From: a virus
Virus record (IMG/VR): IMGVR_UViG_3300045258_000075
Location: 1-23,469 of that record
Length of the DNA stretch: 23,469 bases
Direction: 5' to 3' (one strand)
The notes below the pieces were generated by a model, which worked only from the letters and a program-made list of their open reading frames with translations, was not told the DNA's origin and did no database searches. Every line of letters begins with the position of its first letter. Position 1 is the first letter of the stretch. The position numbers and the translations under genes are program-made. Positions 4,283-11,108 of the stretch are shown piece after piece.

Positions 4283-4993
4283 ATGGGCATCACCCACGCC
4301 AAGGTCAGCGCCAAGTCAGACGGCGGGGATTCGAGTCTTGTCCGTCCGTCGGATTGGAATGCTCCTCATGTCGTTGACCTCAACTTGGCTGTGGACCTCA
4401 TCAAGCTCTACACCCAGGACGCGCAGAACACGGCATCGTGGTCGAAGTCCATCACCGCCCTGAGCACTGGTGAACGGATCATCGTCTGCATCACCTCGTG
4501 GGGTCGCGACGTGAACACCCCGACTCTGACCAACGTCACGTTCACCGAAGTCCTCGCCGTCAACTTCTCCACGACCATCTACACCTCGGCCTATGTTGGA
4601 GTGGCATCGGGCACATCGGGGACGACGCTCGGCATCACGGCGACCGGCTCCAACTGGATCATCGGCGATGTCTACGTCGTGGCCGACACACTCACCCCGA
4701 CGGCGGGCACGAGTTCGACCCTGAGTAATACGGATGTCACATCCATCAGCGGGACGCCGATGCGGGTCATCGGCTCGGTCGGATCGTTCTTCATCATGGC
4801 GATCTCGCAGGACAACGGCACGACCTCTCTCGGTGCGCCGACCGGTAATGGGTTCATCACGCATGCGACGCAGTTGGCCAACTCCACCCTGTCGTCCGGT
4901 ATCGGTAGGACGCTGGCGCCGTCATTCAGCGGCTCATTCAGTGGTGGCACTGGTGGGGCCGACGGTTCGGCCGGGGTCGTTCTGGTCACGTAG
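4283..4993 (+). CDS. Virion-associated protein with MGITHAKVSA leader
   Basis: This encodes 236 residues. ATG 4283 follows the fibre stop (TAG 4280-4282) with no gap. The N-terminus MGITHAKVSAKSDGGDSS followed by VRPSDWNAPHV is a signature I associate with phage tail-fibre and minor structural proteins, and it recurs in the next gene. The rest is rich in Thr, Ser, Gly and Val with alternating hydrophobics, as in a beta-sandwich virion domain, and the C-terminus is Gly/Ser-rich (SGSFSGGTGGADGSAG). There are no membrane segments, catalytic motifs or signal peptide. I infer an adhesin-like accessory subunit sharing an attachment peptide with its neighbour; the ligand is unknown. Confidence 0.7.
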   Translation: MGITHAKVSAKSDGGDSSLVRPSDWNAPHVVDLNLAVDLIKLYTQDAQNTASWSKSITALSTGERIIVCITSWGRDVNTPTLTNVTFTEVLAVNFSTTIYTSAYVGVASGTSGTTLGITATGSNWIIGDVYVVADTLTPTAGTSSTLSNTDVTSISGTPMRVIGSVGSFFIMAISQDNGTTSLGAPTGNGFITHATQLANSTLSSGIGRTLAPSFSGSFSGGTGGADGSAGVVLVT

Positions 4994-5005: not shown

Positions 5006-5590
5006 TTGGGCATCACACACGCGAAGGTCAGCGCCGTCCCAGATGGAACGAATGCCGGGCAAGTCCAGCCGACTGATTGGAATGCCGACCATGTTGGCGG
5101 ACTCAGCCAGTCCTATGTCGGCTACAACACGATTGGTGGGGCGTGGACCGCGACGGTCGGTGGGCGGATGTATGCCAAGAAGGTAACGCTCGCGAGTGCT
5201 GCCATCCTGCTCGCCATCGAGATTCATGTTCGTCCGAACGCCGACAACTTCTCGGATATCGAAGGTCTGGTGGCAGAGGACTCGGCATCCACGGTCGGTC
5301 TCATCATCGGCGGCGCGAGCGTCGGCGCGGTCCTGATGTCGGCAGCGACATCCGGCTTCCCCGGTACGGGACGGTGGTTCTCGATCCCCATCGGGAAGTA
5401 CCTGACAGCCGCGTCCTACTGGATCGGCTTCCGCACGGGGGCTGCCATCCTTGACATCGCCAATGACGCGAGCGGGTCAGACCGCTACTGGACGAACACA
5501 GGCGGCAACTACATCTCGGGCAATCACGCGTCCTTGACGCAAACCGACTCGACGCTCAAATACAGCATCCGCGCAAGCATCCTGTCCTAA
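5006..5590 (+). CDS. Virion-associated beta-sandwich protein, paired with upstream gene
   Basis: This encodes 194 residues from TTG 5006. TTG is chosen because GGAGG at 4993-4997 is 8 bases upstream, and because the resulting N-terminus (MGITHAKVSA, then QPTDWNADHV) matches the preceding protein. After residue 35 the sequence QSYVGYNTIGGAWTAT and a series of strands ending in LKYSIRASILS resemble small jelly-roll domains of phage tails or carbohydrate-binding folds (a DUF4082-like fold is a guess). The two proteins share only the first 30 or so residues, so a common docking peptide carries different C-terminal heads. No enzyme motif is seen. Confidence 0.65.
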   Translation: MGITHAKVSAVPDGTNAGQVQPTDWNADHVGGLSQSYVGYNTIGGAWTATVGGRMYAKKVTLASAAILLAIEIHVRPNADNFSDIEGLVAEDSASTVGLIIGGASVGAVLMSAATSGFPGTGRWFSIPIGKYLTAASYWIGFRTGAAILDIANDASGSDRYWTNTGGNYISGNHASLTQTDSTLKYSIRASILS

Positions 5591-5615
5591 GCCAGCACCA
5601 CAGAGAGGGAGACTC

Positions 5616-6812
5616 GTGGCAAGGATTTTGCTCATAGCAGACGCGGGCGTTCCGTCGGGGTTCGGGACCGTCTCGCACGCCATCTTCGAGAGGCTGGTCC
5701 GTGATTACCATCACGAGGTCCATGTCCTCGCGATCAACTGGCAGGGCGACGTGCCGGACACGCCGATGCGGCTGTATCTGCCGACCCAGAAGGACTCGCA
5801 GGACTACATGGGCATGAGCCGCTACGTCGAACTCGTGGCCAAGCTCCTGCCCGACCTCATCTTCTTCATCAACGACCCGGCGGCAGTGCTGAACTCGTTG
5901 ACCAACAATCGTTTCGATGCCGAGGGCGCTCTGTGGCGCGGCATCCAGACCGGCGACACCCCGTACAAGCCGCCGATCCTCGCCTACATGCCCATCGACG
6001 GCTACGACTCGCCCAAGAGTTGGGACCTGCTGGTGCCAAGGGTGAAGCGCATCGCGATGACCCACTTCGGCCAGCAGGCGATGCCCGAGGCGCCGGTCAT
6101 CTGGCACGGCGTCGATCACAGCATCTTCAAGCCGCAAAACAAGAAGGACGCCAAGAAAGCGCTGGGCTTTGACCCCGACCGCTTCCTCGTGCTTCGAGTG
6201 GACAAGAACTCGACCCGCAAGAACTATCCCGACACGTGGCGCGCCTTGCGCCCGCTCATGCATAAGTACCCAGATATGGATGCCCACTTTCACTGTCTTC
6301 CGCGAGCAGCCGACGGCAACGACCTGATGGCTTTCGCGTGGAACGACGAGGACATCCGAGACCGCCTGACGTTCTCGCCGAGCCTGACCGGCCACACCGG
6401 CTGGGATGTGAAGCATCTGGCCACCCTGTACGCGGCCGCGGACCTGTTCGTCAGTACCTCATGGGGCGAGGGCTTCGGCCTGACCCTCCTTGAAGCCATG
6501 GCCTGCGGCACGCCGGTCATCGCCACCGACTGCTCGGCCATCACCGAAGTCGTCGGCGACGGCGGCATCCTCATCCCGCCGAAGGGCCGTATCGCAACCC
6601 CGATGGGGCAGGACCAATGCCTGCCCGATGTCGAGGCATTCACCGCCGCCATCGATCACTTCCGGCAGAGCAGCGGTCTCCGAAAGACCCTGCGGGCAAA
6701 CACACTCGTCCAAGCTGCCAAGTTCTCCTGGGACGAAGCCGCGCGGCGGATGAATGTGGAGATCACCAAAGCACTCGAACCAGTCAACGAAATCCCAGCC
6801 TTAGTCACCTAG
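5616..6812 (+). CDS. GT-B glycosyltransferase (GT4-like)
   Basis: This encodes 398 residues from GTG 5616, with GAGGGAG just upstream. The N-terminus MARILLIADAGVPSGFGTVS is the first Rossmann strand and glycine-rich loop of GT-B enzymes of the GT4 type. Residues 190-204 (RFLVLRVDKNSTRKN) fit the start of the C-terminal, nucleotide-sugar-binding domain. Glu285 and Glu293 form the EX7E motif (GEGFGLTLLEAMACGTPVI), the donor-sugar site of retaining GT4 enzymes. Length and both lobes are complete and there is no membrane anchor, so it should act in the cytoplasm. It lies between fibre and capsid genes in the same transcription direction, so a virion protein is a plausible acceptor; the Ser/Thr-rich fibre repeats next door are attractive but unproven. 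Altering host surface glycans is the alternative. Confidence 0.9.
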   Translation: MARILLIADAGVPSGFGTVSHAIFERLVRDYHHEVHVLAINWQGDVPDTPMRLYLPTQKDSQDYMGMSRYVELVAKLLPDLIFFINDPAAVLNSLTNNRFDAEGALWRGIQTGDTPYKPPILAYMPIDGYDSPKSWDLLVPRVKRIAMTHFGQQAMPEAPVIWHGVDHSIFKPQNKKDAKKALGFDPDRFLVLRVDKNSTRKNYPDTWRALRPLMHKYPDMDAHFHCLPRAADGNDLMAFAWNDEDIRDRLTFSPSLTGHTGWDVKHLATLYAAADLFVSTSWGEGFGLTLLEAMACGTPVIATDCSAITEVVGDGGILIPPKGRIATPMGQDQCLPDVEAFTAAIDHFRQSSGLRKTLRANTLVQAAKFSWDEAARRMNVEITKALEPVNEIPALVT

Positions 6813-8051: not shown

Positions 8052-9335
8052 ATGCCTGAAACCGGATTGGAGAACGTCCTCGCGGCGCTCTCCGAGTTCG
8101 GGGGCTCGTTCGATAAGGCGAACGACACCCACGAGCCGATCCTGAAGTCCACTGGCGACGATGTCAGTGGCTCGATGCCCTCGATGCGCAAGGTGCTGTC
8201 CAACGGGGACCGCATCCTGATGCAGCGGGAACTCATGAAGCTGAACTCGAACGAACTCACCGAGTTGTTCTACATCCAGCTTTCCAAGCAGCAGGGCGTT
8301 CCGCTCGGGAACGACTATCTGCTTTCGCAGGCGATGGGGAACGACCCGCTCATCAGCAAGGTGCTTGACACCACTGGTGGCGCGGCGCTCCAGCGCATCG
8401 ACCTCGAACCGATCCTGTACACGATGTTCGTCAAGGCTTTCCCGGCCTACGAGCGGATGCGCAAGGTCCCGGCCAACGGTCTGATCCACTCGTGGAACCA
8501 GATCACCGCCTATGGCGACGCGGAGTTCATGACCGAACTCGGCACCGTCACGGACGACAACGCGACCTACGTCCGCCAGAACACGAACATCGCCCAGCTT
8601 GCCACCCGGCGTGGCGTCACCTTCCGCGAGCAGCTTGCTGTTCCGGCGGGCGGCATGCCGTGGAACCCCCAGCAGATCGAAATCCAGCAGGGCCTCACCG
8701 CGATGGCCCACAAGATGCAGAAGACGATTTTCCAGGGGCAGGCATCCAACTCGGGCGGCACCGCGTCGAACGAGCTTGGACTCTACGATCCCAACGGGTT
8801 CACCGGCCTTCGGTCGATCCTGAACACGGCGGACGCCGTCAACTTCAGCCCGTATCTCACGTCGAACCCCGACACCTTCGCTGCGGCAATCGGCGCCACC
8901 ATGGTTCCGATCACCAACGCAGGCGGCGGCGTGCCGAACGTGGTCTACATGCGGGCACAGGAGCAGCAGCGCCTGACGGATAGCCTCACCTCTATCCAGC
9001 GGTCTGTTGATCGGACCGAGTTCGTTCCGGGTCTCACGGTCCCGGCCATCGCCACAGGTGTCGGCCTCGTGCCGGTCTTCGGTGTCCCCGGAGACTCCAT
9101 CGGGACCTACACGGCGACCACGTTCTCGGGCAAGACGGTCGCGGACGTTTACGTCCTCGATGACAACAGCATCGTGCTGCCGTACCTCGGTTCGCCGGGG
9201 CCGTCCGTCCTGGAAATCCCGCCGGGTGTGAGCGGCCAGCTTACGCGGCTGTTCATCATCTACCTGTTCAACGGCCTTGCGGTGCTCACCCTGACGCACA
9301 ACAACAAGGCTCGCGCGAACCTCGCGACCTCGTAG
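8052..9335 (+). CDS. Major capsid protein, HK97-fold type
   Basis: This encodes 427 residues. ATG 8052 directly follows the protease stop, with GAGGAG in the end of the protease gene as ribosome site. The identity rests on position directly after the protease/scaffold, on size, and on sequence pattern: a helical N-terminal region (about 1-95), then GGAALQRIDLEPILYTMF, a stretch typical of the start of the HK97-fold core, with the E-loop region expected around 150-200 and A-domain strands towards the C-terminus (SVLEIPPGVSGQ). No long separate delta domain is evident, which fits scaffolding being carried by the protease gene. It is followed by hairpins and a terminator, consistent with the capsid message being the end of a highly expressed unit. 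A different HK97-fold virion protein is unlikely. Confidence 0.85.
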   Translation: MPETGLENVLAALSEFGGSFDKANDTHEPILKSTGDDVSGSMPSMRKVLSNGDRILMQRELMKLNSNELTELFYIQLSKQQGVPLGNDYLLSQAMGNDPLISKVLDTTGGAALQRIDLEPILYTMFVKAFPAYERMRKVPANGLIHSWNQITAYGDAEFMTELGTVTDDNATYVRQNTNIAQLATRRGVTFREQLAVPAGGMPWNPQQIEIQQGLTAMAHKMQKTIFQGQASNSGGTASNELGLYDPNGFTGLRSILNTADAVNFSPYLTSNPDTFAAAIGATMVPITNAGGGVPNVVYMRAQEQQRLTDSLTSIQRSVDRTEFVPGLTVPAIATGVGLVPVFGVPGDSIGTYTATTFSGKTVADVYVLDDNSIVLPYLGSPGPSVLEIPPGVSGQLTRLFIIYLFNGLAVLTLTHNNKARANLATS

Positions 9336-9346
9336 TCATCGGGGCG

Positions 9347-9372
9347 CTCGGCGGCGTCCCCGGCCCGCCGAG
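9347..9372 (+). other. GC-rich hairpin just after the capsid gene
   Basis: CTCGGCGG (9347-9354) and CCGCCGAG (9365-9372) form a perfect 8-bp stem with a 10-base loop, starting 12 bases after the capsid stop. There is no T-run, so it is not a classical intrinsic terminator; an mRNA 3'-end stabiliser or weak pause is possible. Confidence 0.5.
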
Positions 9373-9428: not shown

Positions 9429-9480
9429 GGCGCGGGGCTGGTGTGGTGGACTCCCTCCCACTGAGTACCAGCCCCGCGCC
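9429..9480 (+). other. Long 14-bp inverted repeat
   Basis: GGCGCGGGGCTGGT (9429-9442) pairs perfectly with ACCAGCCCCGCGCC (9467-9480); inside the loop GTGG (9443-9446) can also pair with CCAC (9458-9461). This is the strongest hairpin I see in the window. It lies in non-coding DNA between the capsid gene and the convergent terminator. With no T-run it may protect the mRNA, bind a protein, or be part of a small structured RNA. Confidence 0.75.
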
Positions 9481-9490
9481 ACACATATAG

Positions 9491-9522
9491 AAAGACCCCG
9501 CCACGAATGGACGGGGTCTTTT
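9491..9522. terminator. Bidirectional intrinsic terminator
   Basis: AAAGACCCCG (9491-9500) and CGGGGTCTTT (9512-9521) form a perfect 10-bp stem with an 11-base loop. TTTT (9519-9522) closes it on the plus strand, and the minus strand reads CTTTCTATAT after the stem. It ends the capsid transcript from the left and the leftward small-gene cassette, whose last stop is at 9535, from the right. Confidence 0.85.
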
Positions 9523-9534
9523 GCTGAGAGGGGG

Positions 9535-9771
9535 TTACTGGCCGGAGTTGTACGCCTCGCTCGGCGCGGCGGGTCCGGCAGGATGCTCTTCGGCCCAATC
9601 GGTCGTAGTCGGGGTATCCGACCCCTGCTGGTTGCGCTGCGGAACGTCAGAGACCTCGGATCGACCGGGGGACTCAGCCATCCGGTCCATCGCGGCCTTG
9701 TCATTGGCCTGCGTCTTTGCGTTGGCCTTTTCCTTCTTCGGGGCGACTCCGCCCTTCGTGGTCTGAACCAT
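9535..9771 (-). CDS. Leftward small disordered protein (third cassette gene)
   Basis: This encodes 78 residues from ATG 9771-9769 on the minus strand. The start overlaps the stop of the previous leftward gene (TGATG), with AGGAGG 7 bases upstream inside that gene. The protein is Lys-rich at the N-terminus (KKEKANAKTQANDKAAMDR) and acidic/Pro/Gly/Ser/Gln-rich later, with almost no bulky hydrophobics, so it is probably disordered. There is no signal peptide, membrane segment or Cys. It ends 13 bases before the bidirectional terminator. The function is not recognised; small highly charged phage proteins next to capsid genes may be decoration, internal or host-interaction proteins, and none of these can be chosen here. 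Confidence 0.7.
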   Translation of the reverse strand: MVQTTKGGVAPKKEKANAKTQANDKAAMDRMAESPGRSEVSDVPQRNQQGSDTPTTTDWAEEHPAGPAAPSEAYNSGQ

Positions 9772-9941
9772 CACTTGTCCTCCTTCTTGGGCTCCTCGGT
9801 GGGCTCGTCAACGACTTTGCCGTCGGTCACGCCGCCGGGGCGATTGCCGACCATTCCGTCTTCGCGGGCGAGTTCAACAACGCTCGTTCGCTGTCGGCGC
9901 TGCTCCTCGGCGATGTCATCCAGTTCCTTCTTGGTGGGCAC
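9771..9941 (-). CDS. Leftward small charged protein (second cassette gene)
   Basis: This encodes 56 residues from GTG 9941-9939 on the minus strand, with a perfect AGGAGG (complement of 9948-9953) 6 bases upstream and overlapping the stop of the preceding leftward gene. The sequence runs MPTKKELDDIAEEQRRQRTS, a helical charged start, then VELAREDGMVGNRPGGV and an acidic/Lys tail (EEPKKEDK). The motif LARE-x-G-x-V and a nearby PGG recur in the first cassette gene, so the two may be diverged copies. It has no Cys and no membrane segment. Coding status rests on ribosome site, coupling and the shared motif, not on a recognised family. Confidence 0.7.
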   Translation of the reverse strand: MPTKKELDDIAEEQRRQRTSVVELAREDGMVGNRPGGVTDGKVVDEPTEEPKKEDK

Positions 9942-9951
9942 TGTGAACCTC

Positions 9952-10128
9952 CTAAGACTTGGTCTCGGGCGCCGGGTGGCGCTCGATGGTCACAGGCGCA
10001 CCGCGGGTGTCGCGGTTCTGGTTGCCGTGAGCAGGGACATCCTGCGCCGGGCCGCCCGGCTTCGCAACGTTTCCGGCCTCGCGGGCCAGGTCTTTCTCGG
10101 GAACCGTCTTGGTCTGATCCTGTGCCAT
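9952..10128 (-). CDS. Leftward small charged protein (first cassette gene)
   Basis: This encodes 58 residues from ATG 10128-10126 on the minus strand, preceded by AAGGAGG with a normal spacing. The sequence starts MAQDQTKTVPEKDLAREAGN and continues through PGG, a HGNQNRDTRG segment and a Pro/Glu end; it is hydrophilic and probably disordered. It shares LARE-x-G-x-V...PGG with the next leftward gene. It is first in a three-gene leftward unit that ends at the terminator near 9500. Its transcription must start in the 77 bases shared with the rightward connector gene. Function is unknown. Confidence 0.7.
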   Translation of the reverse strand: MAQDQTKTVPEKDLAREAGNVAKPGGPAQDVPAHGNQNRDTRGAPVTIERHPAPETKS

Positions 10129-10195
10129 GGTGACCTCCTTATCGTTCCCTCATGGCGTTACCCTAGAGCCGCCTGCATTACAGCGACACACACAC
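10129..10195. promoter_or_regulatory. Divergent intergenic region, candidate promoters
   Basis: The terminator at 9491-9522 should stop capsid transcription, and the cassette runs leftward, so starts for both directions are expected here. Overlapping -10-like hexamers occur: TACCCT (plus, 10159-10164) and TAGGGT (minus, 10165-10160). No convincing -35 boxes are seen, so the assignment rests mainly on gene layout. Confidence 0.25.
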
Positions 10196-10205
10196 GGGAG
10201 GACTG

Positions 10206-11108
10206 ATGGCAAACGTCTCGTATCTCTCGGTCAATCGCTATCTCCGCGGCGGCTTCGGCATCGACGTTCCGGCTGACTACAGTCGCGCGACCCTGCGCAA
10301 CAAACTCGTGCAGGCGACGACCGTGGTCAACAGCTACTGCGGTGCCCCATCACAGCCGCAGGCGTTCGACTTCCGTGGCGGAGTGGTGACCGGCGAGCAG
10401 CACCAGTGGCCGTACATCGATCCCTTGCTCGTGAAGTCGGGCTCGCGCCGGGTCTTCCTCAACCAGCGGCCGCTCGTCAGCGTCGAGTCATTCGTGCTCC
10501 AACTGGCCGAGAACTATACGGTCACCCTCAACCCGGCGACCAATGTCGTCGTGAACAAGATGGAGGGCTATGCAGAGGTCGTCGCACTGACTCCGGTCAT
10601 CTCGGGCTACTTCCCGGTCGGATGGAACTTCGGCCTGTGGAACCCGTTGGCCGTCGTGGACTACACCTATGGCTGGACCTTTGGGGTGGTGGGTGATGAA
10701 TGCGAGGCGGAGTCTCCGACAATCTTCACTGCGAGTCACGGCAACTGGACTGTCGCGTCCGCGGTCTATATCGATGGGGTGGAGCAGGACCCCGATGACT
10801 ACACCATCAAGCTCGATGACGGCTCCATCACCTTCGACACAGAGCCCGACATCGACTCCGTCGTCACCTGCGACTACACCTACAACCTCCCCGACGCCAT
10901 CAGCCAAGCCACCGGCATCGTGACGACCGGCCTGATCGCCAGCGCCCGCATGGCGTCGCGCGGCATGCTGGGCATGCAATCCATCCGCGTCGCCGAGGTC
11001 GCCCTGACCGCACTCCAGCCGAGCCAGATGGTCAACAAGAACGGCGTCTCCATCCCGTCCGAGGCGGCGGACCTGCTTGGCCGCTACACCATCGGCTCGG
11101 CGGCTTAG
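10206..11108 (+). CDS. Head-tail connector (adaptor) with inserted beta-module
   Basis: This encodes 300 residues from ATG 10206, with GGGAGG (10196-10201) upstream. Position after the capsid gene and helices at 24-46 (ADYSRATLRNKLVQATTVVN) and about 228-265 (DAISQATGIVTTGLIASARM) suggest a gp6/gp15-like adaptor that docks on the portal. The protein is about twice the usual size. The extra part is largely a beta-module at 171-226 (SAVYIDGVEQDPDDYTIKLD, then GSITFDTEPDIDSVVTCDYT). That module resembles the ends of the two tail-tip proteins downstream. It may face outwards at the neck as a decoration or whisker anchor. No catalytic motif is seen. The family call is from context and fold pattern. 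Confidence 0.65.
   Translation: MANVSYLSVNRYLRGGFGIDVPADYSRATLRNKLVQATTVVNSYCGAPSQPQAFDFRGGVVTGEQHQWPYIDPLLVKSGSRRVFLNQRPLVSVESFVLQLAENYTVTLNPATNVVVNKMEGYAEVVALTPVISGYFPVGWNFGLWNPLAVVDYTYGWTFGVVGDECEAESPTIFTASHGNWTVASAVYIDGVEQDPDDYTIKLDDGSITFDTEPDIDSVVTCDYTYNLPDAISQATGIVTTGLIASARMASRGMLGMQSIRVAEVALTALQPSQMVNKNGVSIPSEAADLLGRYTIGSAA

Follow-up and report, generated by a model that had tools for sequence, protein, structure and literature searches.

Small genes that face leftward inside an otherwise rightward structural operon have been described in more than one group of phages. In the Cluster O mycobacteriophages (Corndog and its relatives), the rightward structural operon contains a handful of small leftward genes, most of them without a known function; at least one of them has its own predicted promoter, and Corndog PL2 is organised like promoters predicted to yield leaderless transcripts (PMC4351075). 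Microbacterium phages of Cluster EJ carry four leftward genes within the structural operon, and Cluster ED phages carry genes between capsid and connector (PMC7302621). Nucleases encoded close to essential genes of phages are likewise on record (PMC10448857), and so are HNH genes facing leftward at the capsid gene of phages and, in LittleE, an HNH homing-type endonuclease at the capsid intron (PMC3706429). Additionally, morons are reported to carry their own promoters (PMC6814406), and antisense placement to lytic genes is one of their characteristics (PMC7067206).

The locus considered here belongs to an uncultured phage and was analysed in a window corresponding to the full 23,469-base IMG/VR virus record IMGVR_UViG_3300045258_000075. 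A cassette of three small leftward genes lies between the SU10-type major capsid gene on its left (8052–9335, plus strand; SU10_MCP PF17236, phrog_752) and the head-tail adaptor gene on its right (10206–11108, plus strand; phrog_442). As in Cluster O, small leftward genes interrupt a rightward structural operon; the cassette also resembles Cluster EJ in being a leftward structural-operon insert and Cluster ED in its position between capsid and connector. A first-pass annotation of this DNA had considered reversed small genes at such a position unusual, a view that is too strong in the light of the precedents in Clusters O and EJ. On the other hand, no sequence relationship has been shown with Cluster O, where the leader organisation seems different from that of the cassette, with its strong ribosome site on each gene, and none was found with Clusters EJ and ED. 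The cassette also differs from free-standing HNH endonucleases: leftward HNH_3 or endonuclease VII genes occupy its site in seven related instances, whereas the cassette has no nuclease domain. The general kind of insert is thus already known; the cassette proteins match no known family, so that any function found for them would be new, and the phage records searched contain no relative of the capsid of this lineage.

Gene layout, coding signal and transcription signals

Gene 1 (9952–10128, minus strand; 58 codons), gene 2 (9771–9941, minus strand; 56 codons, GTG start) and gene 3 (9535–9771, minus strand; 78 codons) were found within the interval and with the lengths given by the first-pass annotation, and the leaders of all three agree with the AGGAGG-type sites and the linkage by stop/ribosome-site overlap or TGATG that it had described. 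Read on the minus strand, gene 1, the first of the cassette, follows an AAGGAGG ribosome site (AAGGAGGTCACC-ATG); in the gene 2 leader (TTAGGAGGTTCACA-GTG) the AGGAGG is overlapped by the TAG stop of gene 1, and in the gene 3 leader (AAGGAGGACAAG-TGATG) the ATG start is overlapped by the TGA of gene 2. This layout, in which stops overlap starts or ribosome sites, fits translational coupling.

The codon log-odds per codon of genes 1 to 3 in their own frames are 0.25, 0.28 and 0.27, whereas 70 shadow ORFs of similar size located within the other genes of the window have a median of -0.44 (one of the 70 scores higher); the codon model was trained on 14 rightward genes of the same window and its scores are heuristic, although both controls (shadow ORFs and ribosome sites) agree. 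Among the other minus-strand ORFs in the window that reach 50 codons or more, 2 of 81 have a comparable ribosome site, and a simple gene call across the whole window selected the three cassette genes as its only leftward genes. The three genes look protein-coding. It is highly improbable that they are chance open frames, or that the region specifies an antisense regulatory RNA without protein products: high GC does yield many shadow ORFs, and the cassette proteins have no matches in protein family libraries, but codon scores above those of 69 shadow ORFs, three strong ribosome sites in succession, and the presence in a related contig (L007, see below) of a comparable cassette at the equivalent site, one of whose genes is homologous, all speak against it.

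The leftward unit is closed by a predicted intrinsic terminator (9491–9522; -20.5 kcal/mol in the leftward direction, z = -5.0), which can work both ways because its stem has A and T runs on opposite sides. The first-pass annotation had the cassette end at an intrinsic terminator; this part stands as a prediction, but the terminator lies outside the interval 9535–10128 to which the cassette had been assigned and is bidirectional. At the other end, the divergent intergenic region (10129–10205) contains the ribosome site of the adaptor gene and would also hold the leftward promoter; no sigma-70-like promoter for the cassette was recognised within it. Transcription from this region would produce one short leftward mRNA that does not enter the capsid gene, and the cassette could therefore be switched on separately from the late rightward transcript. 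In both the window (10129–10205) and L007 (6014–6095), the minus strand has the 7-mer GGCTCTA some 41–44 bases upstream of the first cassette gene; it could be part of a promoter or could be due to chance.

A strong hairpin without a T tail (9429–9480, plus strand; -42.4 kcal/mol, z = -6.5) lies 3' of the capsid gene, and similar hairpins are found downstream of the capsid gene of relatives. In both the window and L007, the cassette is flanked by the post-capsid hairpin on one side and the adaptor gene on the other; in L001, an HNH gene is located 5' of the hairpin. Post-capsid hairpins lacking a T tail were observed at 9347–9372 and 9429–9480 in the window, 2330–2462 in L001, 1450–1620 in L006, 5285–5402 in L007 and 3909–3998 in L052; in the near clade the loop retains a TTCCCTCC/CTCCCTCC-like motif and the stems vary. 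Rfam matches in the cassette region were all far below gathering scores.

The capsid–adaptor gap in related phages

A capsid profile search of viral contigs returned 46 loci and an adaptor profile added 5 more usable loci; the comparison covers 51 instances of the capsid–adaptor site, including the window, on 50 contigs (one contig has two), some of them near-identical and not independent. The gap is only 58–185 bases in 42 of the 51 instances. The remaining nine are occupied, and every insert is leftward. Seven of the nine inserts are endonucleases: five HNH_3 genes (L001, L002, L014, L025 and L026, the last assigned through near-identity to the L014 protein, the L026 protein itself being unscanned) and two endonuclease VII genes (identical ORFs in L028 and L045). 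The other two are the three-gene small-protein cassettes of the window and L007. The closest relative, L001 (capsid 85% identical), has its HNH gene at the site and no cassette, and since it is the nearest by capsid, the cassette must have been gained or lost in this phage group.

L007 is a 44.7 kb contig whose capsid is 64% identical to that of the window. Its site contains leftward genes of 58, 86 and 54 codons, which are the only leftward genes called within its rightward structural block. Gene 3 aligned locally to the 86-codon gene (5574–5834, minus strand) with a score of 53 against a shuffle mean of 27.7, none of 2000 shuffles equalling it, and the two proteins have in common an MVxTTxGxV start and a C-terminal PSxAxNSG. 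On this comparison of sequences, gene 3 and the L007 gene are homologues, with statistical support. The similarity of the positional counterparts of genes 1 and 2 in L007 is not significant, the second and third genes appear to be in a different order in the two cassettes, and L007 has no T-tailed terminator 3' of its last cassette gene. The first-pass annotation had pointed to related phages as the place to look for the cassette at the same site and had named broken frames in homologues as evidence against its reading; a comparable three-gene cassette is indeed present in L007, with intact frames, and most relatives lack one.

Wider searches added no further members. A tblastn search of the three cassette proteins against 50,697 phage records found nothing, peptide patterns of genes 1 and 2 gave no homologues in viral contigs, and a DNA pattern derived from the beginning of gene 3 together with that of its L007 homologue recovered the L007 contig alone, as it must by construction. 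The L007 86-codon protein used as a query matched only itself in one search; an Enterococcus phage match to it in another was weak (E = 0.05) and was rejected. Six related records were searched for gene 3 without a match, even in L007; since the known homologue was missed, this search leaves room for distant copies. The capsid had no relatives in phage records, nor among bacterial and archaeal genomes; for the terminase of the L007 contig, phage records contain only remote relatives, with less than 30% identity among the matches listed.

Because the site is mostly empty and otherwise holds endonucleases or the L007 cassette, and because L001 is without the cassette, the latter is read as accessory, moron-like cargo at an insertion hot spot. 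Like a moron, it is an extra unit that separates two genes which adjoin each other in relatives, it has its own predicted terminator and it is antisense to lytic genes; unlike a moron, it has no recognised promoter, no atypical base composition and no evidence for a prophage state. An atypical base composition relative to the phage as a whole, a common sign of recent acquisition that does not form part of the moron definitions used, is not seen: the cassette has a GC content of 0.65, no different from the 0.63 of the window, and thus shows no sign of recent foreign origin. The cassette is probably not a core head-assembly operon, and we consider it likely to be a self-contained leftward accessory unit of moron type at the capsid/adaptor hot spot, with products that act in the infected cell. 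Its absence from most relatives, its equivalent in L007 and the other leftward cargo at the site thus uphold the earlier proposal of a separate leftward cassette outside head assembly.

It is very unlikely that the cassette instead specifies leftward-transcribed accessory proteins of the virion or of head assembly (for example a minor head decoration, internal or chaperone protein). Its placement between the capsid and adaptor genes, repeated in L007, would suit such proteins, but it is missing from L001 and from the 42 instances in which the head genes stand side by side, its strand is opposite to that of every structural gene, it has its own terminator, and its proteins have a disordered-type composition. 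As an accessory unit, the cassette marks the capsid/head-tail adaptor gap of this uncultured phage group as a place where selfish nucleases or cassettes of small proteins repeatedly land, with all the inserts seen facing against the late operon, and comparison of this site across genomes offers a defined place to seek new accessory phage proteins.

Protein properties and possible roles

The cassette proteins have GRAVY values of -1.2 to -1.4, in agreement with the hydrophilic products noted in the first-pass annotation, and lie on the side of the charge-hydropathy line typical of disorder. The gene 1 product contains neither aromatic residues nor cysteine, 46% of the residues of the gene 2 product are charged, and the structure model of gene 3, made from a two-row alignment, is structureless. 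By these predictions, the proteins look largely disordered. Internal similarity between them (gene 1/gene 3, p = 0.016; gene 1/gene 2, p = 0.045) was unconvincing after 15 comparisons and in view of low complexity. The products had not been recognised at first pass, and Pfam, PHROGs, NCBIfam and PADLOC gave no meaningful match for any of the three; neither Pfam nor PHROGs detected a nuclease domain (HNH, GIY-YIG etc.) in them. PADLOC, which covers defence and not anti-defence, assigned 0 families to all six cassette proteins of the window and L007.

Small and largely disordered proteins of this type may serve as binding or regulatory factors in the infected cell rather than as virion parts, this being the weakest step of the proposed mechanism; candidate roles are host interaction, anti-defence or local regulation. 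A more specific reading, which we hold only tentatively, is that they are new, fast-evolving, disordered host-interaction or anti-defence factors carried by an exchangeable leftward cassette at a hot spot otherwise used by homing-type endonucleases. The anti-defence role suggested at first pass found no positive evidence. Its other suggestion, lysogenic conversion, is likewise without support, since a search of eight longer related contigs, some of them possibly incomplete, yielded no tyrosine integrase or resolvase family.

A small regulatory or toxin-antitoxin-like module, with products acting as repressors of the cassette's divergent promoter or of one nearby, appears unlikely. A segment of the L007 86-codon protein (NSIEVDDATWGRIIGQASIQQSSPADVVTRAIEMAY) resembles by eye a ribbon-helix-helix DNA-binding domain, with predicted helices at 36–44 and 53–64, and the divergent region of L007 (6014–6095) contains an inverted repeat, GTTAG-AGC-CTAAC, also seen by eye, as a possible operator; moreover, DNA binding is predicted for the product of one leftward structural-operon gene in Cluster O phages. 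However, searches of Pfam, NCBIfam and PDB matched the L007 protein to no ribbon-helix-helix family, its model is poor (pLDDT 62.5, pTM 0.21) and gave no Foldseek match, and gene 3 of the window lacks the segment altogether, its own model showing no structure.

Other features were observed in the window and its relatives. A glycosyltransferase gene (5616–6812; phrog_2170, of the moron category) lies directly 5' of the protease-like and capsid genes, and a gene similar in appearance is found in L065 (2443–3684). The contig with two site instances, L042 and L049 (IMGVR_UViG_3300028802_000007, 130,935 bases), has two separate capsid–adaptor modules, possibly as two joined phages or as a duplicated module. 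Finally, two neighbouring genes of the window (4283–4993 and 5006–5590) have a common N-terminal motif, GITHAKVSA...PxDWNAxHV, which suggests that they encode duplicated structural proteins; a gene of L065 (15289–16080) is listed with this pair, and a related start occurs in the L007 contig too.
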